From contig NC_045140.1 of NCBI RefSeq assembly GCF_008831285.2, positions 16,428,370-16,492,369 on the forward strand: a DNA stretch of 64,000 nucleotides, in the 5' to 3' direction. Source of the DNA: Nymphaea colorata. Its lineage: Eukaryota > Streptophyta > Magnoliopsida > Nymphaeales > Nymphaeaceae. Under the pieces are notes generated by a model. It saw only the letters and a list, made by a program, of their open reading frames with translations, had not been told where the DNA came from and did not search any database. Shown here piece by piece: positions 9,080 through 64,000 of this stretch; position 1 is the first letter of the stretch; each line of letters opens with the position of its first letter. The position numbers and the translations under genes were made by a program.

Positions 9080-9800
9080 TTCAAGCCAAGGATACACTCA
9101 AGTACATTAACAGCATTTATCAAAAGGTGGAAGCATATGGAATATGCTGCATTGTACCCCCGTCTTCCTTTAAGCCGCCCTGTCCTTTAGAGGATGGAAA
9201 CACCTGGGAAAAACGCAAGTTTGAGATACGATTTCAAGATACTGACAAGCTTTAAAATAGAGAGCCAACAAGAAAGAAACCCAAAACACCCAACAGGAGG
9301 AGAAGAAGGAGACAGTCATGGACAACGGTCCCTATCGACATGGTCATTCTGCCCGATCTGAAGTAAATGAACCTGCAGTTTCTGATGATGATAGGTTTGG
9401 CTTCCATCTTGGTCTTGAGTACACTCTAGAAGCTTTTCAAAATATGCAGACAATTTTAAAGAACAGTACTTCAGAGTTGAAGATAGCTATAAGGATATGT
9501 GCTCCGGTGATCATGAATCTAAAATGAAGAAGGAACTGTCAGTTGAAGACATCGGAGGAAGATGAGGTGCATTATGGTGCTGACTCAGATACCGAACAGT
9601 TCTGCAACGGATTTGCAAAAGCAATTTTGACTTGTAAAGTTGATGATGATCCATATGTTTCATTTGGATGGAATATGAACAATTTTGCACGCCTACCTGG
9701 ATCTGTGCTGGCTTTTGAGCAGACAAATATTTCTGGTGTTTTGGTTCCTTGGCTATGAGTAGGAATGTGCTTCTCATCATTTTGCTGGCATGTTGAGAAA
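9080..9800 (+). pseudogene. Decayed JmjN/JmjC histone demethylase fragment (JMJ14/15/18-like)
   Basis: Successive peptide segments match the plant KDM4/JARID-type H3K4 demethylases in the right order. From about 9083 comes a JmjN-like stretch (DTLKYINSIYQKVEAYGI, then CIVPPSSFKPPCPL), followed near 9245 by NREPTRKK and a basic run. The FGFHLGLEYTLEAFQ segment is at about 9390-9440, YGADSDTEQF at about 9573-9602, and the JmjC core with SGVLVPWL and CFSSFCWHVE at 9733-9800, including the first iron-binding His and acidic residue. Resemblance stops just after HVE. These segments are packed into about 720 bp with no clear introns, which suggests a cDNA-derived copy. The reading frame is interrupted several times, so this is a fossil. 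It lies inside the LTR relic. The parent gene would act in the nucleus on histone H3 lysine methylation; this copy cannot. Confidence 0.75.
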
Positions 9801-39949: not shown

Positions 39950-42900
39950 GGGAGACCGACACATGCACGAAGGAGGAGGTGAGAGGCATCAGATGATCCG
40001 ATCGCTAGTCTTGAGAGATTGGGAAGGAAGGTTCCAGGAACCTGCTGCTTGCCCACTGGCTACCACGTGGGCTCCACCGGTTGTCAGCAAATGCCGTAGA
40101 TGAAAAACTTTCATGTGGGACCCGCCAGTTAGATACTATGGGCTGAACTTGGTCAACGATTGGCAGCCTCTACTTTGACCATATGCACCCAAGCTCAACA
40201 GCATGAACAATGTGTGCAAGTAAATGTCTCATTTAATTAACAAGCTAAAAATCAATTCATTATGATACTTCCAATTTTTTTTTGTATGTTTTCTTGTGGT
40301 TTTCGTGACTTTCCTCACGACGTGAAGCATTTTTACCGTTCGGTCGTCCCTAAACAAAGACAAGGCAATTCTTCCAAATCATATTTACTGTATATATCTA
40401 TCCATGCGGGGAAAGAGATAGTGTATACCCAATTGGTTGCTCTTATCAATGAATTCTTACTGCGGATTATCAATGGTTAAAGACTTCTACTTAAGAGTTT
40501 CAAGGTAGAAGACGTCAGCCGTTGGATAAATACATGATTGCGTTTCTCACTCTCGATCGGCATAATCGGATAAGTGTCCTACCAAACACGGCGTGCCGAT
40601 ATTTAAAATATGAAAGGAAAGGAAGACGTACGTAGCCATCAAAGAAAATTTCCACGAAATCTTACGCTTTCCTTATCCATGCAGAGCTGCTGCACTTTCC
40701 TTGGGTTTGTACTAAAGGGAAGGCTGTATATGACGTTTGAGATTAAGCTATATTTGAGACCGTGGCGTGCGTTGGGGACATTTCTTCTTTGTTTTATAGG
40801 AAGCTTTGCAGGTATATTCGGCCACCCAAACATTTATTATGCATTGAGAGGACGAAAAGAAGATCTCTGCTGTGGCCATGTCTATCGTCGTTGGTGAGAC
40901 AGATTGTCGCTTCCAGATGAACACCAGATCACCACCTTGTGGATGAGGACGACCAGCGTGTTGCACAGCAACTGCAAGCGTTGAAACAGGTCAAAGTTTA
41001 TTGACGTAAACGCTTACCTATAGAGTTGCAACTAATCAGCATCTTCTTAGAAATGCTGTAGGTTGTTTGATTAATTTATGCTCGCCATAGGTTGAAACTT
41101 GATGACCAAATAGTTCTCCTAAAAATAGTGATGTCAATGGATCTTATTCTAATTGAATGTATAATTTATCAATCTACTTTTGGTTATCTGTATAGTCATA
41201 TTGGAATTCAATGAAAATGAATAAAATCTGTAACTTATCTGGATCCGATTTTTAGAATAACATCTGAATCCGAATCCAACTTTTAAATCAAATCCAAACC
41301 ATATCATAGACATTGAGTATGTGATATTTATGTAAAGCTATATCTGATCAGAATCAGAATCCACTGAATATTTACTTAGATCTGAATCTAAATCATATGT
41401 CATTTCTTATATTCAAGTCGATCTTAAATCTTAATCAGATAACAATATCCAACTTTTTATGTGGTTCGGTCAGAAACTGGATCTAAATTGGATTTATTAA
41501 CATCCCTACCTAGAAACAACAAGATGTTGTACTAGCCAGTAAGTAACTCCTTCAAGTTGGCCTGTTGGACTATTGTAAATTTGAAATCGACTTGGGGTTG
41601 ATAAAAATTCTTGTTATTTCATAAGCTGGAATAGTTACTTAAAGCTATGATATACGGGCATGAGGAAATTTGATGTGTTCAGTACGAGCTTGTAAAAGGT
41701 GTTCGGGTTTTATAGGCTGCATTTTTTCATATGTTAGAAAAACTATTGTTTTGTTAAGTTGATGACTATTTAAATTTGCAAAAGCAGTTATAAATTGTTT
41801 AAAAGTTTTATATAGCTTTTTACAAACTTTAAAATTCCTTTAAATTTGTAAGTATTGTTTCCAACTCATAAAATTTGTAAGCATTCAAGTTTTTCAAAAT
41901 TTTCAAATCTTAGAACTTCTTGGACGTGATGAAACTTTTGCCTTTTTTTTTTTACAATTGCCAATGGTTTTGGAATGTATTTTTTTCGGTTTCTAAAAGT
42001 TAACCCTTTTTATGTATTTTGGTGAAATGTGTGTAGAGTTTGAAATTTTGCTAAACTTCATAATTTTTTTTGTAGTTATATTAAAATTCTAGCTGTTTGG
42101 AACACGCTTTGCAAAAACTATTATGTCTCGAAAATTATGATTCTTCACGTTTCTTGTTCTTAATTTGCCGTCTAATCCATTTTCATTAATGTTCAGTGAA
42201 AAAACAAATGAAAAGCGTGGTTAAATAGTTGCGCTCAATATGGGAGTCTTTTACTTTCTTTTTATGGTTTTTCCATTTAATTGATGAGTTAAATTTGGAA
42301 ACTAAAAAAAGCTTACGTAAATACTTTCATCTCTTTCTTTTCTCGTTTCAACGTCAATTTCTCTCTCAACGAAGCTCTCTCATCTTTCGATTCTGCCAGA
42401 TGTACAGCTGTTTTGGGACGGCACCGGAGCATCGCCGACGACCACCCACCGTGGTAAGGGGTCTCTCTCTCTCTCCCTTAAGCTACAAACTCTCTGCTTC
42501 GAGGGAGAGGGTTTCTGAAACCAGAGGAAACCCTCTCAAGCGGAGGGTTTCAGAGCTGAGAGAAAACCCTTTGCTTCGAGGCAAAAGGGGCTCCCTCTGC
42601 AGACTGCAAATCCTCTGCCTCCAGGCTCCTTTGCTTTAACATTTTGTATTTGCGGCTTGAGAATTTTGTGTTTGCAGACCCTTTAAATCTTCAGTTATAA
42701 ATTCAAGAAACGCAATTCTCAACCATTCTGTTTCTTTCCTTTTTCCCGCCGAGTTCCAGGGAGGGAAAGCACCCTCTCTCTCTCTCTCAGGCAGCGAGGC
42801 TGGATCCTCGATGGCGCCGACGATGGAAGGAGGATGCAGACTGCGGGCGTGGGTTGCCGCAGTTCATCATTAGGAATTGCAAGCAGCAGCTCCTATCCAT

Positions 42901-43465
42901 CATCCTCCCGCTGGACCAGATTCTCCACTTGCCTCTGGTGGCAGAGTAAGACTACGTTTCCTCCCTTCTCCATTAGCTCTTTCTGTTTTTTTTGTTCTCA
43001 TTAGGGTATTTTTTGACCCACAAGAACAATGCTGCTTCGCTAGGTCCACTGCTTGGAAGGGAAGGGGGCATCTAAAAGGTCGAGAGACAGACAGAGGAAC
43101 GAAGTCGAGAAGAGTTCGATCGGCCTTGGCCCTCGCTCGTCGATCTATCGATCCATCGAAAGCCGACAAACAGAAGAGCGTTCGGAGATCGAGGGCAATA
43201 GGGAGGTTTCCAGAGAGAGTTCACCGTCCCTCATTGTTAGCGATTTCAACACTTAGTGATCGATCGATCGGTCAATCTTTTTCTTAGATTGTACAGAACC
43301 TTACAAGTACGTTTAACGATCGCACTGTTCTGGTCCCATTTCAGGCGTCTCCTTCGCTTTCGGTAAACTCCTTTTGCCCTCCCGTCCTGCAGGTTCTTTT
43401 CTTCTCTGCGGTTCCCTCTTACAGTGCAAAAAGCGTTGAGCGGGGCTCTTGGTCCGACTGTGCAG
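39950..43465. other. Gene-poor boundary between the HMA cluster and the fragment-rich region
   Basis: To about 41,515 this is the end of duplicated block 2. From about 41,660 to 42,120 it is an AT-rich repeat that recurs at 51,085-51,560 (TTTTCATATGTT, TGGACGTGATGAAACTTTTG). From 42,400 to 43,440 it becomes GC-rich with CT-runs (42,455-42,480; 42,772-42,790) and several open frames, none of a recognised family. It could be the 5' part of the kinesin relic. Confidence 0.45.
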
Positions 43466-44887
43466 ATCACGTGTTCGACGAGACTTGCACGAACTTGAGG
43501 ATGTCACCAACCGGCAGTCAAGGGATTCAATGGTACCTCTTGAATTAGTTTTTGTTCTTTTAGTATTTTCAAGGATTGGACGATTTTGGTCATGTTCACA
43601 TCAGCGTTTCCTTTGTAACATCGTTGTGATCTAAATCATTGTTTGAACTGCTGCGAGCGCAAACGACACTAGTTTTGGTTATTTAGGAAGTCTCATGCCT
43701 GAGAGCTTCGTTGTTTGACTGTTCTAAAAAGTGGTACCCAATTCTTGCAGGAACTCTTTTCGCTTATGGGCAGACCAGCAGTGGGAAAACTTTCACAAGG
43801 TAAGGTTCTTCAAACAATCCAAGAGTTATCCATCTGGCTGTCCAAGAAAGTCTTTCGGCATATTCAGTTGGTAGTCATGTTGTTTTTTCACACGAATAAC
43901 TGCTAGAATGCTGTGAAGACCAACCTTTAAAATGGTAGACTGGTGTCTCTCTTCTGATGTTTGCTTGTATTTCTGAAACTAGACAACAGATGGTGAGTTT
44001 AGAATTGGGGTTTCATACGTGGAGGTTTATAATGAAAAAATCAACAATCTAGGTTAATGTTGAGATTAGCTCATAGTTACGTGGAGGTTCATGATTAGCT
44101 CTTTCCACGCTTTTCTTAATGGAGGTTAATGTTGAGATTCAATTTAGGTTATAGAAAGCTCAGGGCAAGAATCTGCGGCATTTGGTGATATGGTCAACTG
44201 AAGATGCTGTCCGTGTCTCTGTTTTGGTTTCTGATCTAGCACACTTCTGGAAACTATCTTCTATATGTTTCTTATGATGGCATATGGGATCATAATAGTT
44301 TTTAGTATTTCTTTTTTGTTTTTGAGTACATTGGATGTTTAAAATACAAACCTTTTTCTTTTTTACAGAATTTGGTAGATTTGGCTGGTTTAGTTTAAGT
44401 CACTAGTTATCCAGGAGTGGTGCTCATTTTTTTTTTTGCCCTATTTGTTTACATATTAACAAAATAATATTACAAATTCAAGTGTATACGCCATATATAT
44501 TGTCTATTCACTATTGTATGTATTATAGGACACACACACATGTAGGTGCATAGACTCTCAGATTCCCATATATTGAAACCACTAAGTCCTTAAATATTCT
44601 TATTTCCAGAGAACTATTTATGCTAGATTGCCAGGCCATGGTGTCATTAAGGGTACTTCAACTAGACCTCCCTCTTTTTGTTCTGGTTTAGATTCGTCTG
44701 TGGAATATCTCTTAGTGAAAATCAAAACCTATATGAATAATATGTTCAAGTATATTTTGTTATAAAATTTTCCTAGGATATTTTGTTATTTTTCTGTATT
44801 CTTCTTGTGGCAATCTTGCCAATACGTACACGATTATCTAAATAAATACACACCCACACATATCCCCCTGCCCCCCCACCCCCACAT

Positions 44888-44890
44888 ATA

Positions 44891-44939
<49 letters not shown>

Positions 44940-44955
44940 GTATATATATATCCAT
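44888..44955. repeat. (CA)n plus (TA)n microsatellite
   Basis: About 40 bp of CA repeats followed by TA repeats. Translated frames here are spurious. Confidence 0.92.
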
Positions 44956-45683
44956 AAATATTTAGAAATCGAAGAAAAAATAATATATGAGAAATCCCAT
45001 AATGGTCCTAAAGTAAATTTCAAATTCCATATGTGCAAGTAAAAGCGATTATTCACAAGCCTATTAATAGATCACATAATCATAGTATCTAGGAGGATAA
45101 ACTTTGAAGTATGCTTAACTAGGACAACAGTTTATTGAAGTCCTTTCTTGGCAAATAAAAGATTGGGGACCTATTCCATTGCCCTTTTAAGTGATGCCCT
45201 AATTGGCAGTTGAATATTAACTGGACAATTTAGGATATTCTCTTATCCTAATGATGCCAATATCCAGCCAATGCCGGGTCCAAGGATGTGCCAATGATAC
45301 GTCTGTCGGCATATATGGTTACTGAGGCCATTGGTGCAGTTCGATGTTTCTAAACTTGCATGTTGAGTTTTAAAAGTACACAATATGATACAATATGGAG
45401 ACCTTGATGATATTTAGAATTTAGATTCTAGTGACTGGACAATATTTGTTCTATGAAGCTCTCTCCTTAGCCCTTTCCCATAATGTTTTGCATGAGCTAG
45501 GATATGCTTTAGCAATATCACCTATTATGCTAAAAATTCCATGTTCTATTGCAATATAATCCAGGTTTTGGATTATCTTACACAAAGTTGCTATATAGTG
45601 GTTGGTTGCATTTGGTTAATGGCAAGTGCAGTGTAAAAGCATCTTTCTATCTGCTTGATTTGTCTTTTACTTTTTATCTTTAG

Positions 45684-46891
45684 GACTGGAAAGACATCTG
45701 TACGTGGTGCGTGGGCAGACAATATGACATGGTTCAAAGGTAAAGGTTGGTAATTAATACATATCCTCTATGTTTCAAACTTTCAACTATGGTCCAAGTA
45801 TAATGATATCCTTTTCTCAGGAGACCTGCTTGTACCCGACTCACTTAAGGATGCCTTTGATGGAGTTACTGCTGTGGTATGTGAATCCACACTTATCATT
45901 CTTCATTTGAAATGTCATTTATTGATGTCACTTAAGATAACATTGCTTCCTTTCCTTGGTTGAAGAAATTTTTACTGTTATTGAGAATGTTTACTTTTTG
46001 GAAGTATTTTCTCAAAATTTCTGCCTATTTATTTATACCACATTTGATGGTTCTTTCTGGTGAAATTGGACTATTGAGAAAGGCTATATATAATTTCAGA
46101 ATCTTATTGCTAGTTTCTAGGAAGACACAATTGCTAAATAAACAAGGTATTTATGGTCAACTTAGGTAAGAAAGCATTTTTGAATGAAAAAAGAGATCGG
46201 TCCTTCATGACATTGTACAGCTAAGACTATTTAACGGCAAAATGAGTGGTGTACCACTGTACCTTATTATTAGTTAGTTAACCATTTATAAAGTGTACGC
46301 ACAAGCTGTGGATAAAAAGTTGTTATGTTTGCAAGATAAGAACCTGATCCAGTATCTAGGAAGACCTGGTTAATGTTTAAACTTTAAACAGCGTATGCAT
46401 GACTATCATAGATAAAAAATAGGTTGGACTTCCTTCGGCATCCCAGCTGCTAAGATTTGTTTGATGGCAAACTATTTATGCAGGCTGTACTGTTAATCAG
46501 TCATAAATTTATAGACTGCACAAATAAGTCACAGGTAAAAAGCTGTTATTTGATATATGGAAGATGAGACCTGCTGAGTTGTGTCTTTGGAGTTTCTGGA
46601 TCATCTCATATAAAAGTTAGTGAATGAGTAAAATTCAAAGGGTTGCTGATGTATTTCATCCAGTTGCTAGTGTTTTTTTTTTTATTATTGTGTTCCTGGA
46701 AGATTAAGCTTGAATAATGTGTTTTTTGGCAATGATTTCACCTTCATTATTCAAGAGAGATGAGATATGTTATTCTGACCATTTTTAGGTATCTTGTGTT
46801 GGAGGCTTTGGCTCAAACTCTCATATGTATAAAGTCAATGGAACTGCAAATATTAATGCTATGATTGCTATCAGAGCTGCATCAGAAAATG
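45684..46891 (+). pseudogene. Three exons of an At5g10730-like NAD(P)-binding Rossmann protein, inside the kinesin relic
   Basis: Exons at 45684-45739, 45821-45876 and 46799-46891 keep frame across GT-AG junctions. They encode TGKTSVRGAWADNMTWFKG, then DLLVPDSLKDAFDGVTAV, then VSCVGGFGSNSHMYKVNGTANINA, and end IRAASENG. This matches the middle of the plant protein family of Arabidopsis At5g10730/At5g15910, atypical short-chain dehydrogenase-like proteins related to complex I NDUFA9, just past the nucleotide-binding Gly motif. A three-residue insertion (MIA) sits before IRAASE and looks like a small local duplication. The N-terminal GxxGxxG exon and everything after ENG are missing. The frame is clean over these exons, so the copy is either young or spliced into a chimeric transcript. 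It lies between kinesin switch II and the YRDSKLT exon. Confidence 0.8.
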
Positions 46892-47939
46892 GTAAGCTTC
46901 ACTTGTTCTTTGCAATGTTACTCTTCCACTTTCCCCTTTCTTCTGTTTGGCTTTTTGTGAGAACTTGTCACTTTCATGAGATATGTATACATGACAAAAC
47001 CTGGAACCTCATTTGTTGATATAAAAATACACAAATTTTATGCTTGCTTAGCACTTTTATTTTCAAGTTTAAGTGCATGGTTTGGGGAATAATAGAGGGG
47101 GGACTGTTTGTTCTCTTCGTTTATCGGATCATTCTTGCTGCCACCAGCATCATCTGTGTCAAAACCATTATGCATAAGTTATGATTTCTGATCCAAGACT
47201 GGTGCTGGTGGCATACGTTTGAAGGAAGGGAAATACATAAATAAAAGCTGAATAGCCCATTGGAAATGTTATCAACAGAATTAGTGATAGTGGTGTTAGG
47301 CAAAGGTCTGGCATAGGTAGCCGTTTGTCCTCTTAAATTTTTATTGTTAGCAGTATAATTATTAGGATTCTAATTTCTCACTGGTATATCATCTTTGCAG
47401 AGGACATATTCCTTACCGTGATAGCAAGCTCACCGCAATTCTTCATGCTGCTCTTGGTGGCAATGATTATCTGTACTGTTGCACATGAAGAGGTCAAACT
47501 TAAATCTGGTTTTTCTAGGTATTTTCTTTCAATCAATTCCATTAAACCTCATAGTTACATGCAATCAATTATCTATATATAGGTTCATGTTGATGAAACA
47601 AAGGGGACTTTGCAGTTCACTGGTAGAGCTAAGCGCATCACAAATTGTGTTCAAGTGAATGAGGTTATCTCTTCCTTGTCTTGTTTTAATTGTGCAGGAT
47701 AGTCATTTACCTTTGTCTTGATTTTTTTATGCATGTTTAATAGCTTGATCGAACCAACTGAGTTGTCTAAGACCTGTTAGCTTAGTCTCCAATCTGGTCA
47801 ATAAAATGGAAGAATCAGGAAATGGGAAGACTTGGCTTCGAATGACCAGGCTGAGTGATCCAAGTTTTGGCCGTGACAGCATAGTTTTGGCCAAGTTAGC
47901 CTAGTCCCAGAGTTTAATGGAGTCATTCATGTATACAAA

Positions 47940-50560
47940 GTAATGACAACTTTAAACTTTCAAGTTTCTAAAGTCCATTGGATTTTATAAATTTTCAAAA
48001 TGATTTTAAACATGGTCTAGACTTTTGTATATTTTAAAAATCACATCTGCATTCAAAAACATGTATGCATTCGGCATCCTAGACCGGATAAAATGACACC
48101 TCAGTTCTACTTGCTTGCTCAAAATCCGCAATCCAACATCCTAGACCCGATTAGATGAGACCTTTGATCGCGTAGGGGACTAGATCAGACCTATGATCTA
48201 TTTCTTAGATCAAAATCCCTAATCCAACATCATATACTTGATCACATAAAAAAATGAGTGATTTTCTGATTTGTTGTAAATTCTTTTCAAATCCTTTAGG
48301 AATTTTTGAAATCATTTGAAGAATATTAGTTTGTCTATATAAGTCTTTGAAATCATTGTCAAGTCTTCCAAAATTGTGCAAGTTGGCTTCAAATTCTTTT
48401 CATTTTTGTAGAATCTTCTCAATTTCTCGTTGTATCTTTAAATTTCTTGTATTTGATGTGTGACATTTCCTAAATGCTTGTTAAATTCTCAAGTTTTTAA
48501 TTGCACTTTTTACTCTCGAGTTTTTCAAATTTGTAAAACAATTTTAAACATGGTCTGAACTCTCTGGTTCAGATTTTAAAATTCGAAATCCAATTTCGAA
48601 TTACCAATCCAAGAGACCGTATAAGATTGGACCTCTACTCTAGAGCTTTGGTTTGATTCCTGCATACAACATCCTAGACCAGATCAGAGCTGACCTTTGA
48701 TCCAAAACATAGTTATGAATCCCTATTTCAACACCCCATACCGGATCAGGTCAGACCTCTGATCTATTTCTTGCATCCAAATCCTAAATCAAACATCATT
48801 GAACAGATTCAAATCCCTTTTGAGTATTTGGAATCATTTCCCGTGTTTTACTTTGTCTATATACATCTTTGAAACCACTCTCTAAGTTTTCCAAAATTTT
48901 GTAACTTGAATTCAAATTCTTATGATTCATTTTCTGTGAATTTTCTCAATTTCTTTTGAGTTCTTCAGATTTTTTGGATTTGATTTCGTACTTTTCTAAA
49001 ATCTGTGCTAAATTCTCAAACTTGTTAATGCACCTTTATACTTTCAAGTTTCTAAATACCATTGGATTGTATAATTTTTCAAAATGATTTTAAACATGGT
49101 CTAGACTTGGGTTTAATGTTTTAAAATTCACATCCATTTTCAAAAAAATATTCATTCGACGTCCTAGACCGGATAAAATGAGACCTCCGTTCTTAATGCT
49201 AGTTCAAAACCCGCAATCCAACATCCTAGACCGGATTAGATGTGACCTCTGATCTGGACCTTAGAGACGAGACCTCCGTTCTAGATGCTTGTTGAAAACG
49301 CAATCCAACATCCTAGACCGGATTGGATGAGATCTCTGATCCATACCTTAGGTCAAAATCCCAAATCCAACATCCCAAGTCGGATAAGATGAGACTTATA
49401 ATTGAAATCTTAGGGTAGAATCACCAACTTCAATTTTCGCGTAGGGGACTAGATCAGACCTATGATCTATTTCCAAGATCAAAATCCCAAATCCAACATC
49501 ATATACTTGATCACATAAAAAAATGAGTGATTTTCTGATTTGTTGCAAATTCTTTTCACATCCTTTAGGAATTTTTGAAATCACTTGAAGAATATTAGTT
49601 TGTGTATATAAGTCTTTGAAATCATTGTCAAATCTTCCAGAGTTGTGCAATTTGGCTTCAAATTCTTTTAATTTTCTTAGAATCATCTCAATTTCTTGTT
49701 GTATCTTTAAATTTCTTGTATTTGATGTGCGACATTTTCTAAATGCATGTTAAATTCTCAAGTTTTTAATTGCACTTTTCTATTCTAGAGTTTCTAAATT
49801 ACACTAGGTTGTCCGAATTTGTAAAACGATTTTAAACATGGTCTGAACTCTCTGGTTCAGATTTTTTAAATTTGAAATCCAATTTCGAATTACCAATCCA
49901 ACTTCTAAGACGGTATAAGTTTGGACATCTACTCTAGTGCTTTGGTCTAATTCCCACCTACAACATCCTAGACCAGATGAGAGCTGACCTCTGATCCAAA
50001 CCGTAGGTATGAATCCCATACCAGATGAGATTAGACCTCTGATCTATTTCTTGCATCCAAATCCTAAATCAAACATCATTGAACAGATTCAAATCCCTTA
50101 TGAGTATTTGAAATCATTTCCAGTGTTTTACTTTGTCTATATACATTTTTGAAACCACTCTCTAAGTTTTCCAAAATTTTGTAAATTGAATTCAAATTCT
50201 TATGATTCATTTTTTTGTGAATTTTCTCAATTTATTTTGAGATCTTCAATTGTTTTGGATTTGATTTCGTACTTTTCTTAAATCTGTGCTAAATTCTCAA
50301 ACTTGTAAATGCACCTTCATACTTTCAAGTTTCAAGTTTCTAAATACCATTGGATTGTATATTTTTTCAAAATGATTTTAAACATGGTCTAGACTTGGGT
50401 TTAATTTTTTAAAATTCACATCCATTTTCAAAAAAATATTCATTCGACGTCCTAGACCGGATAAAATGAGACCTCCAAAATCTGCATTCCAACATCCTAG
50501 ACCGGATTAGATGAGAGCTCTGATCTAGACCTTAGAGAGGAGACCTCAGTTCTAGCTGCT
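47940..50560 (+). repeat. Tandem repeat of about 1.1-1.3 kb units with a nested CATCCTAGACCGGAT motif
   Basis: The landmark TGATTTTAAACATGGTCTAG recurs at 48001, 49085 and 50373, and CGTAGGGGACTAGATCAGAC recurs at 48171 and 49440. The array therefore has two long units plus a partial third. Inside each unit the short motif CATCCTAGACCGGAT(A/T) followed by (A/G)GATGAGACCT recurs several times (for example near 48078, 49163, 49222, 49307, 49966, 50449 and 50492). Several percent divergence is visible between units. No coding sequence was recognised. Confidence 0.8.
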
Positions 50561-50569
50561 TATCAATTT

Positions 50570-53190
50570 TTTTCTAGTTTTACAAAATTCTTGCTATTTT
50601 GCACATGTTTTGCGAACACTTTTACTTCTTGAAAACCATGACTTTTCACGTTTTCTACAAAATGTCAAAGACTAAGACCATCGTTGATGTACTTATAAAC
50701 TTTTTAATGGTTTTGCTTGGTTTTTGACGTTTAATGAACTTCACAAAATTTTTGAACTTTTCCAAAATTTAACATCTTGCTACACTAAATCTATGGAAAG
50801 TTTCTAATTACTTTAAAAGTATCATTCAAACTTTGTAAATTTACTACTTTTATGGGTTTTAAAACTTTATATTTGGCATATCTTTTCTTTTACGGTTGAA
50901 GCACTTTTGAACTCTTTTAATCTTTTGCAAATGTTGCTTTGATCCCATAAAATTTTTGAATGTTTGAGAAAGCTTTACATTGTTTTGGTTTTGGAAAGAT
51001 GACATTTTTATGGGTTTTTGTCAAATTCATGTGCTATTTGAAATTTTGCAAAACTTAATCAAAAGCTGTTCTGGTTTTGCAAAATGGTTGCACTTTTTCA
51101 TATGTTGGAAGGACTATTGTTTTGTTAAGTTTATGTCTCTTTAAATTTGCAAAAGCAGTATTGATCTCTTATAAATTGTTTAGAAGTTTTATATAGCTTT
51201 TTGCAAATTTTACAAATCTTTTAAATTTGTAAGTATTGTTTTGAACTGATAAAATTTGTAAGTATTGGTGTTTTTCTTAATTGTCAACTCTTGCAAGTTT
51301 TTGGACGTGATGAAACTTTTGCCTTTTTTTTTACAGTTGCTAATGGTTTTGGACTTTTTTTTGGATTTCTAAAAGTTAACCCTTTTTTATGCATTTTGGT
51401 GAAATATGTGCGTAATTTGAAGTATTGGTAAACTTTATCAATTTTTTTCTAGTTTTACAAAATTCTTGCTCTTTTGCACATGTTTTGTGAACACTATTAC
51501 TTCTCGAAAATTTATGACTCTTCACGTTTTCTGCAAAATGTCAAAAACTAGTTGTAACGTTTATGTACACTTATAAACATGTTAAATGTTTTACTTGGTT
51601 TTTGACCTTTTATGGACTTCACAAAATTTTTACAAAATTTAACATCTGGTTAGACTAAGTCTATGGAAAGTTTCTAATTACTTTGAAAATAGCATTCAAA
51701 GTTTGTAAAATTTACTACTCTTGTGGATTTTGAACTTTATATTAGGCATAGCTCTTCTTTTATGGTTGAAACACTATTGAACCTTTTGTTGACGTAGGAG
51801 GGGGTCGATCACAGTGTTTTTCCTAAATAAGACTGTTTGTACTCTTTCAGTGGCTGTGTTGTTTGGTTGGACGTCTTTGTTCAGGTTTGTTTTGAAAGAA
51901 ATATGTTGTTGTTGAAGTTTGTTTAAGGGTTTAATGACTTAATCTTGCTTTCTAAGTGTTGCTGCATGTTATCATGGGATAGTTAAGGTCATTTATGTAT
52001 CAATCATAGTTGTGTTGTTGAGACACAATAGTCACAACAACAGCGTTCTGCTTAAGGCACTTCTTGTTGTACAGTAGGCTGATACTTTTGCACTCTTGTA
52101 AAGCATGATTGGCTTTACTGGTGAATGATTATTTCCACTAGCAATCTTTGATGCTGAGAAAACCTTTTGAACTGCTGGTATGGTAGTTATATGAGACATA
52201 AGTCACAGACTATGACATTGTGGAGATTGTACTATCTTACATTGGAAATGCTGCAGAATAGTCTACCATTGGAAAGCTGTATGCTTATGGTTTGTGGCTT
52301 GTTATTGTTGAAGCTGCTTGGTTTGTTAATGCACTCTATTTATGTCAATTTCATAGACCTTTTGGCAATTATTTCAGCCTGTTTAAAGCTACCATTCTCT
52401 TGAGTTTGTTTTTTGCATTATTTTTTCTAAACATGATAGCAATTGTTTTTGTTTTACAAGATTTTTTACATATTTTTATAATGACTACAAACGTTTATAA
52501 TGCCCCTGTAACCATTGCTCATTTTTTTCTAATTTTACAAAATTGCTGCACTTTTTCACATCTTTTGGAAAGACTATATTGTTTCGATTATGACTCTTTA
52601 CCTTTTCTAAATGTTAAATATTTCTCATATTTACTAATTTGAACTTTTTTAGACACTTATAAACTGTTTTGAAAGTTTTACTAGCTTTGTGATCTTTTTC
52701 GTACTTCCCAGAGTTTTTATACTTTTCAAATATTTAATGTCAAATACATTTTGCCAGTGAAACATAATTTCAAAAATTCTTATAATTTCTAAAAATTTGT
52801 TAATTACTTGGAAGGAAGCATTAAAATTCGTTTTTTTTATCGTTAAAATGACAATAACTAAAATATAAACTTTCACGTTTCTTGCTAACTATGCCATAAG
52901 AATTGTGATGTCGTTAACTATGCGGAAAGTATTAGAAAGTTACTAGCTTTTTATCGCATGTAACAAAGGATGATTGATTAAAATTAATACTAACCAAAAA
53001 TGCAACATTACTTTTACAAGTGAATTATTTGAAACCATGTTTAAATGCCTAGCAAATTGGTGTATTCAACAATGCGCTGATTACAGTGTGTTTACTTTTC
53101 AATTTACGGGATCAGTTTTCTTGTTCTTCATTTAGATAAATTTCACATTTAGCATACAATATGTCTTATTGGATTGCATTTGTTTGAATT
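50570..53190. other. AT-rich repeat tract, source of later duplications
   Basis: 50,570-51,560 resembles 41,660-42,120 and carries the words TTTGCAAAAGCAGT and GTTAACCCTTTTT. 51,577-52,350 is present again at about 59,575-60,335. 52,620-52,740 resembles 63,165-63,260 (GACACTTATAAA.TGTTTTGAAAG). No genes recognised. Confidence 0.6.
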
Positions 53191-53196
53191 GCTCAG

Positions 53197-53460
53197 GCTA
53201 CAAGGAATCCTTTGTGTTCAAGTGCCAACCAGTTCAATGTCACACAATTTTGTGGACCCCGTCCTGATGACAATGTGGACTCTTTTGGAGGCACTTCTAA
53301 CTCCACAAATGTTTCTCGAGTCCAGGCATGTCCAACTCAAAATTTCTATGAATATGTTCTGTCATCACTTGTTCCATGTTTCTGTGCTGCTCCTATTAAA
53401 CTTGGATATCGTTTAAAAAGCCCTAGCATCTCTATGCTTCTGCCATACGATTCATGCTTT
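53197..53460 (+). pseudogene. LRR receptor kinase ectodomain exon fragment (At1g06840-like)
   Basis: After a CTCAG acceptor, one open stretch reads NPLCSSANQFNVTQFCG, then CPTQNFYEYVLSSLVPCFCA, then APIKLGYRLKSPSIS. The layout (NPxC, FCG, CPxxxFYEYVP..PCFCA, GYRLKSP) is typical of the region after the leucine-rich repeats in the plant LRR-VIII-type receptor kinases such as At1g06840 and At5g37450. Resemblance fades after about 53,440 and no kinase domain or LRR is present nearby. It is an isolated exon on the same strand as the kinesin and NAD(P)-binding pieces. Confidence 0.75.
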
Positions 53461-55815
53461 TATATTTGCTCATGTTTGGCCTTGATTTGGATCTTGATGT
53501 CATGCTGGCATCAATTGCTGGTATAGTTGTAGTTTCTTCTCTCATTGAAGAAAGCATACTAAAGAGTATAGTAAAATTAACAAAAAACATCTGTGTAAGT
53601 ACCCTTGTTTTTGTTCATGTATTTGCATGTGTAATTGGTTTTCTAGTGTTCAGAGCTACATAGTTAGTTTGACTTGGAGATGTTTTCTTCTTCCCTTTTT
53701 CAATGCTAAAAAATGAGTTGATTGTAGAAGCATTAGCTTTGGTTATTCACATGTAAGCTGATTAGTGGGTCAATGTCTAATTTGATTTAAGTTCATAACT
53801 GGTCGTCAACAACAACGTTATGATGCTTGGGGTTGTTTACGACATTTGATTTTTGTATCATAAAAATGAGACCTTAGCTGACGATGCCTCTTTTTTTTAC
53901 GTACTAAAGTTTTATCCTTCTTTTTGAATTTTTAGTGTTTTTTGATAGAAGAACCTAACCCAAACCATTTGTGAAACTTTCAATCAGTTGAATACCCAAC
54001 TTTTCTTGGAACTCCTCACCCTTAAACCAATCTTTTGTATAGAAGACCCTACTTTTATGGGAGATTTGGTGAAGTTCGTTCTTTTAACCAGCCAAGTTTT
54101 ACATTCACCCATCTCTTTAGGGAGTACAGTTCCTTTCTCCTGCTGATATACCATTTGATGTCAAGAACTTTTGTAAAAGAGGAACTTTTCAGTTTTGCTT
54201 AAAAACATTTTGAAAGTGTTTTCTCACACAATGATGTGCCTTGCTTTATTCTTAGTACCTTTCCAAGTGGAAGGTGGAAACTTCAAATTCTTGTTGTCTA
54301 TCAATGGAAGAGGAAAATCGAAAAAATCTTGGATATGAGCAGTGAAGAAAAATCCTATGAAGTTGAGAAAGTCAAGACTAGGAAATGCTATTGACTCTGG
54401 CGATTAAGCATTTGCAAGGATTTAGCAGGAAAATATATTGAGGGAGAAGCCAAAATGCTCTATAAGATCTTGGCAGGTAGTAAAATGAGAGTTGAGAGAT
54501 GGGCTCGGAGCTTGTGTTAGTCGTTCCTCTGAGTTAGAAATCGAGAGTACCGGGTAGGCATAAAGGTGATTTATGTCTATTTCGCGAAGATAATGATTTA
54601 TGAACTTTTGACTCGTTGAAAACCCGTAAGGTGAAGCGGGTTGGACACGTGACAAAGCTACACATAACTACCAAAGTGGTGGAGCTTCGTAGTAGCCTTT
54701 GGGGTGGTGAGGTATTCCCTCAAAGGTGAAGGTCGGCCCAAAAAAAAAAAAAGAAAAGCACAAGAAAAAAATTGAAAGGCAAAAAGCTGAATGCAAAAGA
54801 AAAAAAATGAAGAAAAAACAAGAAAAAAGCAAAAGGTGCCTGCCAAGAGATGAAAGACATGAAGGCTGAACTCGCAAGAATTGAATGCGACAATCTTTCG
54901 TGGATGTACGATTTTGGGGTCAATATCTGCTCCTTGTTTTGATTATCTAGGATGTCGAGGATGGTTCCTTTCTGTTCATATTCTGGAAATTGAAGGACAT
55001 TCCTTTTAAAGATTCGACAACATTGATGCGAAATAAAACCAAATGCTTGTATGGTACTAACAGTACATGAAGGTTATATTATTTTCACAACACGAGCACT
55101 CAAGTTTATGAGTTGAATTGATTATTTTTGAACTATTTCAAAATTCAATGTAAAAACTTGACGTCTCTTGTATGTTTCCAGGATTCCTAGGCATAGCAAT
55201 AACTAACCAATCCCCTTTAGTCTTGAAAATGTTTGACCATTTCGTTACCAAATTGTTAGTCCTTCTGTGAAATAGATGAAACCCCTCAAACCTAGTTCAA
55301 CTATGCTGAGCATGATGAATTATCCATCCTTTCCTTTTGTCTTTGGTGGGACAAGTGATTAAGCTGACTCTAGATGATATTTTTCAAAAGTTCTATCGAA
55401 GTTGCATAGTGGTATATGTCCACCTAATCTTGTTTTTGTGAGTTGTATAAATTTCATCTGTTTGATCTTTATCCTTTGTTTCATTCTAGCTGCTGTTAAA
55501 ATCTTTTATGTAGTTATAGCTCTTTAATAAAAGGATCAGTTGAGGCATTCAGCCCTTTGGTTTGTGCCCCCTCCCTCTTTCCCCACCTTACTAATTTCTC
55601 GCTCCACCCATGTTCGTATCCATGCATTTTTATGTCATCAATCTAGTGCTTGAATTTTTTTTATTCCTCTAGCTTGGGTGGCCCCTTTATTTTAATTGAC
55701 ATGTGACTGGACATGATCCTGAATTGTCTTTTGGTTGTCTTTTATTTCCAAGAGGCCTCTACATGGTGGAGGCTTGATTTCTCATTTTGGATTTGAGACT
55801 GACTACATAAATTTT
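53461..55815. other. Interval between LRR-kinase and NFS2 fragments
   Basis: AT-rich. It includes an A-rich stretch at 54,738-54,840 that gives Lys-rich frames on + and Phe-rich frames on -. No gene recognised. Confidence 0.45.
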
Positions 55816-55819
55816 ATAT

Positions 55820-55951
55820 GAGGTAAATGGTTCCAGCTTGGTGTATTTAGACAATGCAGCTACATCTCAAAAGCCATATGCTGTTTTGGAAGTTCTTCGT
55901 GATTATGCGAGGGCTACAGCTCAAATGGTCACCACAATATTCATTACTTAA
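55820..55951 (+). pseudogene. NFS2: Chloroplast cysteine desulfurase (SufS/NFS2) exon fragment
   Basis: The exon encodes [28 protein letters not shown] and, after a one-base frame change, [14 protein letters not shown] before a GTATCC donor. This matches the N-terminal exon of plant CpNifS/NFS2, including the strongly conserved [11 protein letters not shown] element. In place of the usual NSNVHRG it has SSNGHHN, so the Arg of that loop is changed. The parent enzyme uses pyridoxal phosphate to release sulfur from cysteine for plastid Fe-S clusters. Here only one damaged exon is present, on the + strand like the other captured fragments. Confidence 0.78.
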
Positions 55952-56146
55952 GGTATCCCAACATAACGCCCCATACCTACCCTTACTCTCTCTCTCTCCC
56001 TCCCTTGTCTTGATTGCTTGCTCACTCACATGCATGTTCAGAGTTGGACACCCACAATGATGCACTCTTCCTGTTTGCAAAGGAAGCAAGAAAAAGAAAA
56101 TTCCTTGTTCTAAAATTCTATGTTTCTGTATATCAAGGAAGGAAAA

Positions 56147-56306
56147 AAATAAGGGTAGTTCATTGGGTGCATGGTAAATCATTTGATTTAATCTTTTTTC
56201 AATAGTTTTATTATTTGGCGTATTGAAAAAATAAGGGTAGTTCATTGGGTGCATGGTAAATCATTTGATTTAATCTTTTTTCAATAGTTTTATTATTTGG
56301 CGTATT
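56147..56306 (+). repeat. 80-bp tandem duplication
   Basis: AAAAAATAAGGGTAGTTCAT through CGTATTG is present twice, head to tail, with no visible differences. Very recent. Confidence 0.9.
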
Positions 56307-56457
56307 GTGCGGTAAGTATTTGAAAAGACTCTGGAACCTTAGTGTCGCCTGTCATTTTTCATTGTTTCTAGCAGCAGCAGTCCGACCCATATAAGTGCTT
56401 AATGTCCTATACACTCATCAATGTTAATAATTTTCTATAATTAATATGTTACAAGTG

Positions 56458-59400
56458 AAATCATTGGCTAATACTATTGAGCCTATCTTGTCTATGTCAA
56501 GTGTAGTGGGCTATGTCAAGAATATAATCAGGGTCTCTATCAGATCTCAACAACCTGGAATAGCTGCCACATCCCTAACTATGCCTTTTATAATCAGGCT
56601 GGTAAAACATCTATATAAGCATATTGTGTCATTATTTAGTGAAGCTTTGCATATATTGACAGACAACCATTGATTGCAGCATGAACATAAACCATGAGAA
56701 GAGAATTCGTTTTGTTGATACTCTAGCCATCTAGAATCTGCAATACAACATCAGATTGGGCAGACCTACACGCAAGGGTGCGGTTAGTAGATCCCTCTTT
56801 ATTTTGACCTTTTATGGACTTCACAAAATTTTTACAAAATTTAACATCTGGTTAGGCTAAGTCTATGGAAAGTTTCTGATTACTTTGAAAATAGCATTCA
56901 AAGTTTGTAAAATTTACTACTCTTGTGGATTTTGAACTTTATATTAGGCATAGCTCTTCTTTTATGGTTGAAACACTATTGAACCTTTTGTTGACGTAGG
57001 AGGGGGTCGATCACAGTGTTTTTCCATGTCAAGAATATAATCAGGGTCTCTATCAGATCTCAACAACCTGGAATAGCTGCCACATCCCTAACTATGCCTT
57101 TTATAATCAGGCTGGTAAAACATCTATATAAGCATATTGTGTCATTATTTAGTGAAGCTTTGCATATATTGACAGACAACCATTGATTGCAGCATGAACA
57201 TAAACCATGAGAAGAGAATTCGTTTTGTTGATACTCTAGCCATCTAGAATCTGCAATACAACATCAGATTGGGCAGACCTACACGCAAGGGTGCGGTTAG
57301 TAGATCCCTCTTTATTTTGACCTTTTATGGACTTCACAAAATTTTTACAAAATTTAACATCTGGTTAGGCTAAGTCTATGGAAAGTTTCTGATTACTTTG
57401 AAAATAGCATTCAAAGTTTGTAAAATTTACTACTCTTGTGGATTTTGAACTTTATATTAGGCATAGCTCTTCTTTTATGGTTGAAACACTATTGAACCTT
57501 TTGTTGACGTAGGAGGGGGTCGATCACAGTGTTTTTCCATGTCAAGAATATAATCAGGGTCTCTATCAGATCTCAACAACCTGGAATAGCTGCCACATCC
57601 CTAACTATGCCTTTTATAATCAGGCTGGTAAAACATCTATATAAGCATATTGTGTCATTATTTAGTGAAGCTTTGCATATATTGACAGACAACCATTGAT
57701 TGCAGCATGAACATAAACCATGAGAAGAGAATTCGTTTTGTTGATACTCTAGCCATCTAGAATCTGCAATACAACATCAGATTGGGCAGACCTACACGCA
57801 AGGGTGCGGTTAGTAGATCCCTCTTTATTTTGACCTTTTATGGACTTCACAAAATTTTTACAAAATTTAACATCTGGTTAGGCTAAGTCTATGGAAAGTT
57901 TCTGATTACTTTGAAAATAGCATTCAAAGTTTGTAAAATTTACTACTCTTGTGGATTTTGAACTTTATATTAGGCATAGCTCTTCTTTTATGGTTGAAAC
58001 ACTATTGAACCTTTTGTTGACGTAGGAGGGGGTCGATCACAGTGTTTTTCCATGTCAAGAATATAATCAGGGTCTCTATCAGATCTCAACAACCTGGAAT
58101 AGCTGCCACATCCCTAACTATGCCTTTTATAATCAGGCTGGTAAAACATCTATATAAGCATATTGTGTCATTATTTAGTGAAGCTTTGCATATATTGACA
58201 GACAACCATTGATTGCAGCATGAACATAAACCATGAGAAGAGAATTCGTTTTGTTGATACTCTAGCCATCTAGAATCTGCAATACAACATCAGATTGGGC
58301 AGACCTACACGCAAGGGTGCGGTTAGTAGATCCCTCTTTATTTTGACCTTTTATGGACTTCACAAAATTTTTACAAAATTTAACATCTGGTTAGGCTAAG
58401 TCTATGGAAAGTTTCTGATTACTTTGAAAATAGCATTCAAAGTTTGTAAAATTTACTACTCTTGTGGATTTTGAACTTTATATTAGGCATAGCTCTTCTT
58501 TTATGGTTGAAACACTATTGAACCTTTTGTTGACGTAGGAGGGGGTCGATCACAGTGTTTTTCCATGTCAAGAATATAATCAGGGTCTCTATCAGATCTC
58601 AACAACCTGGAATAGCTGCCACATCCCTAACTATGCCTTTTATAATCAGGCTGGTAAAACATCTATATAAGCATATTGTGTCATTATTTAGTGAAGCTTT
58701 GCATATATTGACAGACAACCATTGATTGCAGCATGAACATAAACCATGAGAAGAGAATTCGTTTTGTTGATACTCTAGCCATCTAGAATCTGCAATACAA
58801 CATCAGATTGGGCAGACCTACACGCAAGGGTGCGGTTAGTAGATCCCTCTTTATTTTGACCTTTTATGGACTTCACAAAATTTTTACAAAATTTAACATC
58901 TGGTTAGGCTAAGTCTATGGAAAGTTTCTGATTACTTTGAAAATAGCATTCAAAGTTTGTAAAATTTACTACTCTTGTGGATTTTGAACTTTATATTAGG
59001 CATAGCTCTTCTTTTATGGTTGAAACACTATTGAACCTTTTGTTGACGTAGGAGGGGGTCGATCACAGTGTTTTTCCATGTCAAGAATATAATCAGGGTC
59101 TCTATCAGATCTCAACAACCTGGAATAGCTGCCACATCCCTAACTATGCCTTTTATAATCAGGCTGGTAAAACATCTATATAAGCATATTGTGTCATTAT
59201 TTAGTGAAGCTTTGCATATATTGACAGACAACCATTGATTGCAGCATGAACGTAAACCATGAGAAGAGAATTCGTTTTGTTGATACTCTAGCCATCTAGA
59301 AATCATTGGCTAATACTATTGAGCCTATCTTGTCTATGTCAAGTGTAGTGGGCTATGTCAAGAATATAATCAGGGTCTCTATCAGATCTCAACAACCTGG

Positions 59401-60989: not shown

Positions 60990-61986
60990 TAAGGCTGGGC
61001 GTCGGGCCGGGCCGCGCCCCGGCCTGGCCCGGTATGGGCCGGGTTTGGGCCGGGAAAATCCCGACCCGGGCCGGCCCGTCTCCCTCCCCCTTTCCTGCTT
61101 CCCCCCTTCCTGTCCCCCTTCCCGTCTCTCCTTCCCCCTTCCCGTCTCCCTCCCCCTTCCCCTTCCCAGTTGGCCAGTTCCCCTTCCCATCTCCCTCCCC
61201 CTTCTCGTCTCTCCTTCCCCTTCCCAGTTCCCCTTCCCGGCGACCCGCACAGCAACCCAGCTCCAACATGCTTCACCCTCTGGTTTGGCCATCCGCGGAT
61301 CATCAAAGCTCGTCAATGCCACCTACTTGCTGATCTTTGTTCTACTTCAATAGCATCGCCACCTGCTCGAGCTCTTACTAGCAGCACAAGTCGTCAGATG
61401 TCTTCATCGCCACCAATTTCATTCGGATGATCGACTCCCCTTCCTATCGACATCGATTTTAGGTCATTCCTTCAATTGCTGCCATTTGAAACATCACCAC
61501 CCTCCTTCGGCTTTAATTGGAACCCAGATTATCACTGTCCCCATTTTCGAAGGCCCCAACCCACCTGCACCTCGATCGTCTCTCTCTTTCTCGTTTTCTG
61601 ATTCACCAAAACCTCAACTGGGCAGCCCATCTTCCCCCCCATTCCATTGCCTCCGCTCAGCCTGCACTCCATCTTTGTTCTTCACACGACGCCCTTGCTG
61701 TAACCGACTTCACACGAAGTATCCGACTTCATCTCCGGAATCAGGCGACCACGGTGTGAGGGATTTGCACAACAACGTCGACAAGGCGCAGAAGGAAGAA
61801 GGTTTAGGGCTTTGGGAGGGGGAAACGCCGCACGGTCTCTGCAGGAAGGAGAACGACGAGCGAGGAGGGAGGTCGGCGGGCAGGAGGAGGTCGTCGGTGG
61901 CTGGAGGAGGGCGGTCGGCAGGCCGGGCCTAATTTTTTGTGGCCAGGCCCGGTACCCGGCCTGGCCCGGCCCGATACCCACCCCTA
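60990..61986. mobile_element. hAT-type non-autonomous transposon with intact target-site duplication
   Basis: The left end reads TAAGGCTGGGCGTCGGGCC. The reverse complement of the right end reads TAGGGGTGGGTATCGGGCC, so about 24-bp terminal inverted repeats match at most positions. Perfect 8-bp duplications GTGGGAAA flank it at 60982-60989 and 61987-61994, as hAT elements make. The 997-bp interior is strikingly GC- and CT-rich: CCCTTCCC-type runs at 61,080-61,240 and GGAGG runs near 61,860-61,925. Several open frames result, but no transposase or known domain. The perfect duplication suggests a fairly young insertion. Confidence 0.88.
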
Positions 61987-62651: not shown

Positions 62652-63270
62652 GACTGCAAATAAGACTATCTTAACTAATTGCTATTCTTGTATTGGATTT
62701 TTTAAAACGGCAAATTGTTCTTCTATGTACATAACTAAATATGGTTAGATTACTTCCAACTCTTGTCTTGGTGGTAGGTGACGTATTGATTATGTTTACC
62801 ATGTTCCCTCTCTTGTCGTAAATCTAGTTTTCATTGGTCAAATTACATATAAAATTATATACACATTTTCTCCTGCAGATTGTATTGTACATGATCAGCT
62901 GTCAGGGAGGAAGATTAGAATTGGCCTTGGGAAATATCATTTATGCTCCCTTGACTAGACATGAGCTTTTTGACGAAGGAAACTTGTGGAACATATATGT
63001 CTGTAAAGGATGAATCAATGGTGTGGTACAAATATTCTGAAAATCTCTAATTACTTTGTAAGAAACATTCAAAATTTCCAAGGCATACGGCTCTTATCAG
63101 TTTTACGATTTGATGATTTTTTTGGCTTTCTTTTTACAATTGCAAATGGTTTCAAACTGTTCTCTCGTACTTACTAATTTGAAATTTTTAGACACTTATA
63201 AATTGTTTTGAAAGTTTTACTAGCTTTGTGATCTTTTTCATTCTTCCCAAATATGTGATGTGAATGATAT

Positions 63271-64000
63271 GTGATCGTCTCATTTTGAGTGCAAAACATA
63301 CGATGAACCCGGTACAACAAAAAGGAAAGCAGTCTTGTGAGACCTGGGAATTGCTCTAGGATCTTGATGAAGCAACATGCGCACCATCAAGCTAAAAATG
63401 TCAATTAGATGCAATTGAAATAAATGGCTGACTGGTTGACACGATCAATGCGTGGCCAACTAGATGCATTGGCGATGTGATGTGATCGTCTCATTTTGAG
63501 CGCAAAAGATACGATTAACCCCCTTACAACAAAAGGGAAAGCAGTCCTGTGAGACGTGGAAACTGCTCTAGGATCTTGATGAAGCAACATGCGCACCATC
63601 AAGTTAAAAATGTTGGTTAGATGCAATTGAAATAAATGGCTTACTGGTTGACACGACTAATGCATGGCCAACTAGATGCATTGGTATAATGGTCATTTTT
63701 AGGAGCTTATGCGTATTGCACAAGGAAAGTCAATCAAAAGCATGGAATACTTGACAAGTGCACTCAAGGGACCTTATGTAAATGATACGCGATCGTGTCA
63801 TTTTGAGCGAAAAAGATACGATCAACCCTCTTACAACAAAAGGGAAAGCAGTCCTGTGTGACATGACATGAAGACTGCTCTAGGATCTTGATGAAGCAAC
63901 ATGTGCACCATCAAGTTAAAAATGTCAGTTAGATGCAACTGAAATAAATCGCTGACTGGTTGACACGACCAATGCATGACCAACTAGATGCTTTGGTATG
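63271..64000 (+). repeat. Repeat of about 210 bp, three copies, running off the window
   Basis: Copies start at 63271, 63482 and 63789, each with GATCGT.TCATTTTGAG, GGAAAGCAGTC.TGTG, CTCTAGGATCTTGATGAAGC and TGGTTGACACGA. The first two abut (211 bp apart). About 100 bp of unrelated sequence separates the second and third. Copies differ at several percent of positions. The third reaches the window end. Confidence 0.9.

Follow-up and report, generated by a model that had tools for sequence, protein, structure and literature searches.

Gene fragments from four sources in Nymphaea colorata: a likely layered mosaic of nested pieces

Clusters of intron-bearing fragments from several genes, all on the same strand, are often taken as a signature of Helitrons. 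One such cluster lies in a 64,000-nucleotide stretch of the Nymphaea colorata genome (the window, i.e. the whole stretch of DNA analysed). The tract holds exon remnants, with introns, from a kinesin gene, an epimerase-fold gene (labelled "At5g10730-like"), an LRR receptor kinase (LRR-RK) gene and a chloroplast-type cysteine desulfurase gene. All are on the + strand, as are the other features located below. The initial annotation had recognized these remnants, their common strand and their retained introns, all of which we confirm, and had attributed them to a single Helitron-like carrier. Is the tract indeed one mobile element? Our analysis suggests otherwise: it is probably a layered mosaic of nested gene fragments rather than a single mobile element. 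Agreement in strand is weak evidence, because four independent pieces would agree by chance at a frequency of 1/8. Nor do the pieces lie side by side, because kinesin sequence is found on both sides of the At5g10730-like piece. We refer to the window copy as A and to related composite copies as B–F; E was read only in part.

Kinesin remnants and repeat family K

The kinesin sequence belongs to a repeat family, termed K, with 14 copies in addition to an apparently intact parent kinesin gene at C3:26.26 Mb (L035, read at C3:26,256,200-26,261,200). Homology to this parent begins at 43334. The 5' part of the kinesin segment (43334..44393) aligns to L035 639-2265 in three blocks of 83-86% identity, with introns kept, and exon peptides mark exon remnants at 43459-43530, 43750-43800, 43998-44051 and 44369-44389. 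The 3' part (47192..47949), which is 87.8% identical to L035 2277-3031, was likewise delimited by exon peptides (47192-47230; 47399-47492, with a frame change; 47583-47663) and by matches to kinesins in the PDB. One window kinesin exon matches solved kinesins with E=8.4e-5, and a second more weakly (E=0.06); the Pfam Kinesin match (E=9.9e-7, 28.5 bits) falls below the cut-off of 29.3.

Upstream of the kinesin homology, comparison of K copies defines a left part with no assigned origin (42635..43333), which starts at a breakpoint specific to A and B. Matches to the window start at 42635 in C, D and E and at 42643 in F, and to the left of this start C–F have further sequence in common with one another. 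Among the dispersed K copies, three agree at 97-98% across 6.5-8 kb, and the similarity between L027 and L028 runs past the left edge that both have in common with L025. Two candidates were rejected: L034, considered as the kinesin parent, is another K-like fragment (first exon only) next to a tandem repeat, and C3:26,258,170, considered as a ninth insert-free copy of K, is the parent gene. As a first step, a stretch of the kinesin gene spanning 3.1 kb would have become part of K, whose copies are now found on several chromosomes. The homology and the copies are directly observed; the manner in which K spread is a matter of interpretation.

An epimerase-fold patch within a kinesin exon

The kinesin exon is split by 2,798 bp (44394..47191) containing three exons with their introns. 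Both ends of this patch fall inside introns of the donor, an epimerase-fold gene at C3:19,096,874-19,099,645 (L024), which matches it collinearly at 88% of nucleotides and has additional exons flanking the copied 2.77 kb on either side. One donor exon upstream of the copied stretch scores above the cut-off for Pfam Epimerase, and the corresponding peptides of the window gave no match in Pfam or the PDB; we take patch and donor to be At5g10730-like. The patch is present in 6 of the 14 K copies and absent from the other eight, four of which were read as sequence and four judged from the coordinates of adjoining matches. It is also absent from the parent gene, whose exon is uninterrupted at the insertion point. 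At this site, 7-8 bp of the target exon have been replaced, at most 2-3 bp are common at the joins (by eye), and no target-site duplication is seen at the patch ends. Searching with the patch gave 31 matches, of which 7 are full-length (the six composite copies and the donor) and the other 24 are shorter than 60 bp, so the piece does not appear to be mobile elsewhere.

Templated double-strand-break repair (patch or filler DNA) would leave a donor that persists, is collinear and extends beyond the copied stretch, together with a small deletion or microhomology at the join and no target-site duplication. Judged from the sequence, the patch fits such repair, and hence the repair-mediated filler capture that the initial annotation had named as an alternative. 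In one K copy the kinesin exon may have been broken internally, and the gene at C3:19.10 Mb would then have supplied 2.8 kb as the repair template, through template switching or synthesis-dependent strand annealing. PMC4423477 cites Wicker et al. 2010 (Genome Res., 'Patching gaps').

Production of filler DNA through strand annealing is documented in plants (PMC3445842, PMC4423477), and maize shows filler where ends are joined (PMC2686159). Like templated filler, the patch is a collinear, intron-bearing gene copy from one donor, with small target loss and no target-site duplication. Unlike it, the patch sits within a gene fragment belonging to a repeat family, and six copies of the composite now exist. 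Moreover, 2.8 kb is large for classical filler, which counts against our explanation; the examples drawn from these sources span 1-131 bp in maize (PMC2686159) and 1-123 bp (PMC4423477).

Repeat family N and the AT-rich blocks

The LRR-RK and cysteine desulfurase pieces are carried together by a second repeat family, N. Relative to a gene on C10 (L036), the LRR-RK segment (53078..53794) has an internal deletion of ~1.09 kb: 53078-53498 of A corresponds to L036 2100-2520 (86% over 421 bp) and 53500-53794 to L036 3610-3925 (76%). The same deletion join is seen in all six N copies compared (A and L029, L030, L031, L032 and L033), and at least 15 N match rows begin exactly at 53078; N therefore has its own history. 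By eye, the L036 exon appears to encode the ectodomain of a receptor kinase and, after it, a membrane span. Its Pfam ALE2_N match (E=6e-4) is below the cut-off, and the LRR piece found nothing relevant in Pfam or the PDB (two irrelevant PDB matches, E 0.7 and 1.2). The middle of N (53795..55810), common to dispersed N copies, has no assigned origin. None of three peptides from it scored above a Pfam cut-off, and a Complex1_51K match to the L037 peptide (E=0.018, 15.4 bits versus a cut-off of 31.2) is probably due to chance. Further right, a frame at 55811..55948 is homologous, over ~55817-55909, to part of an exon of a chloroplast-type cysteine desulfurase. Its best PDB match is the Arabidopsis chloroplast enzyme 4q76 (E=1e-7), and its Pfam Aminotran_5 score (E=2e-4, 20.9 bits) is below the cut-off of 21.5. 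From copy comparison, the right part of N as found in A covers 55949..56800. Homology of C and D to A stops at 56800, where C continues in common with L029, L031, L032 and L037. N right ends vary between copies and include a stretch that resembles Copia coding sequence by eye.

Families K and N also occur apart. At the dispersed N loci L029-L033, five stretches of 7-8 kb, window matches lie only in N, plus AT-rich sequence at one locus, and there is no match to the window kinesin. Within the stretches compared, N has no match in L025-L028, L024 or L035 (versus L032 and L036) or in copy F (versus L032 and L037). It was not found beside the five N-free K copies read, and K adjoins N in copies A–D.

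In A and B, an AT-rich block of internally repeated units (47950..52519) sits where C and D have 1,054 bp (E: 1,053), as seen by comparing A and B with these copies, and the first 240-300 bp of this sequence continue K. AT-rich sequence joined to N (52520..53077) is common to C and D, with only the first 463 bp comparable in E; none of the five dispersed N copies that were read showed it. The AT-rich repeats had been proposed as the body of a carrier. The repeat pairs are real (41.7/51.1 kb, 82%; 52.6/63.2 kb, 92%), but the carrier role does not hold, because among the copies read only A and B have the right end of K replaced. The repeats look like a separate, later layer. At 56513..59300, a 513-bp unit is repeated in tandem. 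The unit is chimeric, combining 288 bp from the end of N with 225 bp from the AT-rich block, and the tandem copy B has about one such unit.

Order of events and alternative explanations

Copies A and B form a tandem duplication (99.6% over 15 kb, starts 42.8 kb apart), and C and D are 99.9% identical over 21.6 kb. Kimura distances are 0.073-0.083 between insert and donor (introns, 0.077-0.089), 0.047-0.059 between F and A–E, 0.001-0.008 between A and C, and 0-0.0007 between A and B in K plus insert. In our reconstruction, the kinesin-patch composite, once formed, would have been duplicated (F versus A–E). Family N, with its LRR-RK and desulfurase pieces, would then have become the neighbour of the composite in the A–E lineage, which would have been duplicated recently. 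This adjacency is observed in A–D, and E was read into the first 463 bp of the common right-hand block. Finally, the AT-rich block would have come to stand where the K right end was in A and B. Against this, the distance between insert-bearing and insert-free K copies is 0.053-0.075, somewhat smaller than that between insert and donor. Yet the insertion is not expected to predate the separation of the two kinds of K copy, so the account has to assume that rates were unequal or that copies underwent conversion with one another. In addition, the A–B distance is 0.009 in the left half of N versus 0 in K, making conversion or assembly error possible there.

The idea that one Helitron captured all four pieces stepwise, the tract being its body, draws on the four intron-bearing pieces on a single strand and on the right end of the 2.8-kb insert, which reads CTGA followed by T. 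We consider it highly improbable. CTGA-T is also present in the donor's own intron, and we rejected it as a Helitron end; the left end of the insert is not TC, and at none of the breakpoints 42635, 44394, 47950 and 53078 does the sequence on the right open with TC. Rather than insertion between A and T without loss, the known pre-insertion site shows 7-8 bp replaced. As had been suggested, we looked in 41-64 kb for G+C-rich hairpins preceding a CTRR end; the + strand had none and the - strand one (42524), away from any breakpoint. The gene pieces do not travel as one unit and are found apart elsewhere in the genome: the kinesin lacks the insert in eight copies and the parent, N loci lack the kinesin, and the single full-length match to the epimerase-fold piece beyond the composite copies is its own gene (L024, C3). 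The single-carrier reading thus fails by the refuting criterion that the initial annotation had itself set, because the pieces have independent carriers and times. Next to no chance is left for the view that the fragments derive from full-length genes whose introns are very large and extend beyond the tract. Introns are kept, but apparently intact kinesin, epimerase-fold and LRR-RK genes occur elsewhere, the insert splits a kinesin exon, and a later exon shifts frame. It is also very unlikely that assembly error in a duplicated region created or inflated the composite. Near-identical blocks on small contigs (C382, C310, C466, C37) and the unequal 513-bp array in A and B would be in keeping with such error, yet the kinesin-patch core occurs in six places, including copy F, which cannot be an assembly duplicate because it has diverged (91-92% identical).

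A more serious contender, and a real possibility in our view, is that each family is a gene-capturing transposon in its own right (of Helitron, Pack-MULE, CACTA or non-autonomous LTR type), that K and N came to lie next to one another by insertion, and that K received a single repair patch. Copies of each family are scattered across several chromosomes (K, 14 copies; N, at least 68 match rows after 39 of 927 candidates had been scored), the three closely similar K copies and the Copia-like stretch fit this account, and a transposon could have spread either family, their ends being mapped in part. Opposing it, no transposase-like frame other than Copia ones was seen by eye among frames of at least 130 aa at 12 loci (B, L027 and L028 left out), N right ends differ from copy to copy, and L027 and L028 are alike beyond the edge common with L025. 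As for fixed Helitron ends in K or N taken singly, those read in either family are uneven, each family having been mapped in part. Long terminal inverted repeats were looked for across 41-64 kb without success: the longest of 21 inverted-repeat pairs is 41 nt at 71%, within AT-rich repeats, and none is at a breakpoint. The tract as a whole thus shows neither mark of a Pack-MULE or other TIR transposon: long terminal inverted repeats are not seen, and the insert has no target-site duplication, which would be 8-9 bp long. As to LTR transduction, introns are kept, and L025, L027, L029 and L032 contain no direct repeats longer than ~81 bp.

The layered mosaic that we favor resembles gene-fragment Helitrons and Pack-MULEs in having multiple intron-bearing gene fragments within multi-copy repeat families. 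It differs in that no common termini were found around the pieces, whose donors, carriers and ages differ. A cluster that looks like a Helitron can thus arise from independent layers, and fragment content alone is insufficient for calling Helitrons. No paper joining Nymphaea, Helitron and "gene capture" was found in the one collection searched. The tract is a well-resolved example of already known processes, in which a single genome supplies the donor, the parent, copies in the pre-insertion state and relative dates. It is probably non-functional, because the kinesin pieces are interrupted. Tentatively, and with low confidence, we suggest that a repeat family can gain gene segments by break repair, that such patches travel along, and that neighboring families fuse, giving exon composites without a capturing transposon; some composites might then be transcribed as chimeras. 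The extent to which repeat-amplified, kilobase-scale repair patches build gene chimeras thereby becomes testable. The A/B tandem and the near-identical C/D pair are like local segmental duplication clusters, with no notable difference. Five of the six composite copies are on C3, as are the donor gene and the kinesin parent (the sixth is on the small contig C382); on the tentative reading above, this would favor same-chromosome templates.

Copies of the composite and its kinesin component

The assembly searched, in which the window occupies C3:16,428,370-16,492,369, comprised 407.8 Mb in 783 contigs (the Nymphaea colorata genome is described as 409 Mb, with 14 pseudo-chromosomes and 804 scaffolds; PMC7015852), and because genome searches scored best candidates only, each copy count given here is a minimum. 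With a 2-kb probe taken from the kinesin end, at least six near-full copies were identified: the window copy (A), B, which lies 42.8 kb downstream of A, C, D, E (on the 34-kb contig C382) and F, which matches the probe at 91%. Truncated relatives were also matched (e.g. C641:11205 and C5:5205545). A and B are 99.6% identical over 15 kb, and C and D are 99.9% identical over 21.6 kb. Window positions 42635 to 47949 are common to A, C, D, E and F, with F starting at 42643. The block 52520-56800 of A is present also in C and D; in E it is comparable over its first 463 bp, the limit of the fetched sequence, and it was not found in the 30 kb of F that was read.

The 3′ kinesin stretch alone gave at least 20 match rows genome-wide. 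They include the six composite copies, the parent gene and eight copies of the kinesin-bearing repeat family (K) that lack the At5g10730-like insert, one of which takes up two rows; the others are a terminal 95-bp piece of contig C310 and three matches that are weak and short. By our reading, the motor-domain exons of the parent, L035 (C3:26,256,200-26,261,200, minus strand), are uninterrupted and more exons flank the captured stretch on both sides. Homology with K spans L035 positions 639-3731, introns included, in blocks of 80-88%; K lacks about 195 and 400 bp of the L035 sequence. At the left join of K copies, we read non-kinesin sequence giving way to the first kinesin exon. A second set of loci, on C2, on C1 and at 0.06-0.21 Mb of C6, where five of them cluster, shares this exon and a portion of the K left region; L034 (C1:38,293,000-38,299,999) is the sole locus read.

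A separate family carrying the receptor-kinase and desulfurase pieces

A single family, N, with at least 68 match rows (39 of 927 candidates scored), carries both the LRR receptor kinase piece and the desulfurase piece. Fifteen of these rows start exactly at window position 53078, and both left and right ends vary between copies. Relative to L036, an LRR receptor kinase gene on C10, A and all five dispersed copies compared (L029-L033) share an internal deletion of ∼1.09 kb, and homology in the dispersed copies extends further left than in A. We read the L036 exon as receptor ectodomain, followed by an intron and then the membrane span; L036 gave no profile match above the cut-off. The receptor piece (53188-53523 in the window copy) retains an open frame of 112 aa in nine of 41 protein matches, of which six lie on C3 and the other three on contigs C310 and C466; ten dispersed copies among the 41 have stops within a 53-55-aa frame. 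The desulfurase exon also occurs, again as a fragment, at a C10 locus ∼21 kb from L036. By eye, the right end of N (L029 position 5868 onward) resembles Copia coding sequence, with ∼24 bp repeated beside a Copia-like fragment. Between the tandem copies A and B sits a third N copy, which is partial (window 53603-55313 matching C3:16,501,665 onward, 99.5%).

N was not detected in the sequence fetched for four of the eight insert-free K copies (L025-L028), for F, for the patch donor locus or for L035. Conversely, none of the five dispersed N loci gave a kinesin match to A. K adjoins N in A-D and, over the part that was readable, in E; this adjacency is absent in F. The initial annotation saw the pieces as one structure with the signature of Helitron capture, and named Pack-MULE-like or repair-mediated filler capture as alternatives. 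The gene fragments are real and the tract does look unusual, but these comparisons show a stack of separate events (K, patch, N and rearrangement). K without the insert, N without kinesin, and K loci lacking N in the stretches read all argue against a single unit. A parent gene for the kinesin, a donor gene for the patch and a matching C10 gene for the receptor kinase were found and compared, a check that annotation had proposed; the independent carriers it had named as contrary evidence are seen in the two separate families and the patch's own donor gene.

Origin and age of the At5g10730-like insert

Sequence was read for four insert-free K copies, and in these the positions matching A:44393 and A:47192 are 7-8 bp apart; in A-F, 2.8 kb (44394..47191) takes the place of those 7-8 bp. 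The L035 exon is uninterrupted at this site, and we infer from adjacent match coordinates that four further K copies are insert-free. Among 31 matches to the 2.8-kb piece, 24 are shorter than 60 bp and seven are full-length, namely A-F and C3:19,096,874-19,099,645. At this last locus the copied stretch lies inside a gene and is flanked by exons, at 5684-5782 on one side and 9543-9671 on the other, which identifies the gene as the donor. The stretch starts in one donor intron and ends in another. The insertion is the one step in the tract for which before and after states are reconstructed, and it bears the marks of templated break repair.

Kimura distances between insert and donor are 0.083 (A) and 0.073 (F), with introns (0.077-0.089) exceeding exon positions (0.017-0.030). 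K copies with and without the insert differ by 0.053-0.075, and the insertion therefore seems as old as this split or slightly older, yet it is expected to postdate it. We attribute the mismatch, which is the chief quantitative strain on the repair-patch reading, to conversion or to a difference in rates.

Rearrangement between and beside the families

Where C and D carry 1,054 bp, and E 1,053 bp, that begin with a 240-300-bp continuation of K, A and B have an AT-rich block instead (47950-52519). A tandem array (56513-59300) is built of a 513-bp chimeric unit of N end and AT-rich block; A holds several of these units and B about one, either a copy-number difference or an assembly effect. A and B are identical in K and differ in the left half of N (distance 0.009); thus, either sequence has passed between the two tandem copies or their assembly is imperfect. 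From 63258 to 64000 and onward lie ∼212-bp tandem repeats, relatives of which adjoin F and the K-like fragment in L034. A G+C-rich stretch (60990-61986) whose inverted ends are imperfect, 29 nt long and 79% complementary is possibly a hAT-like element.
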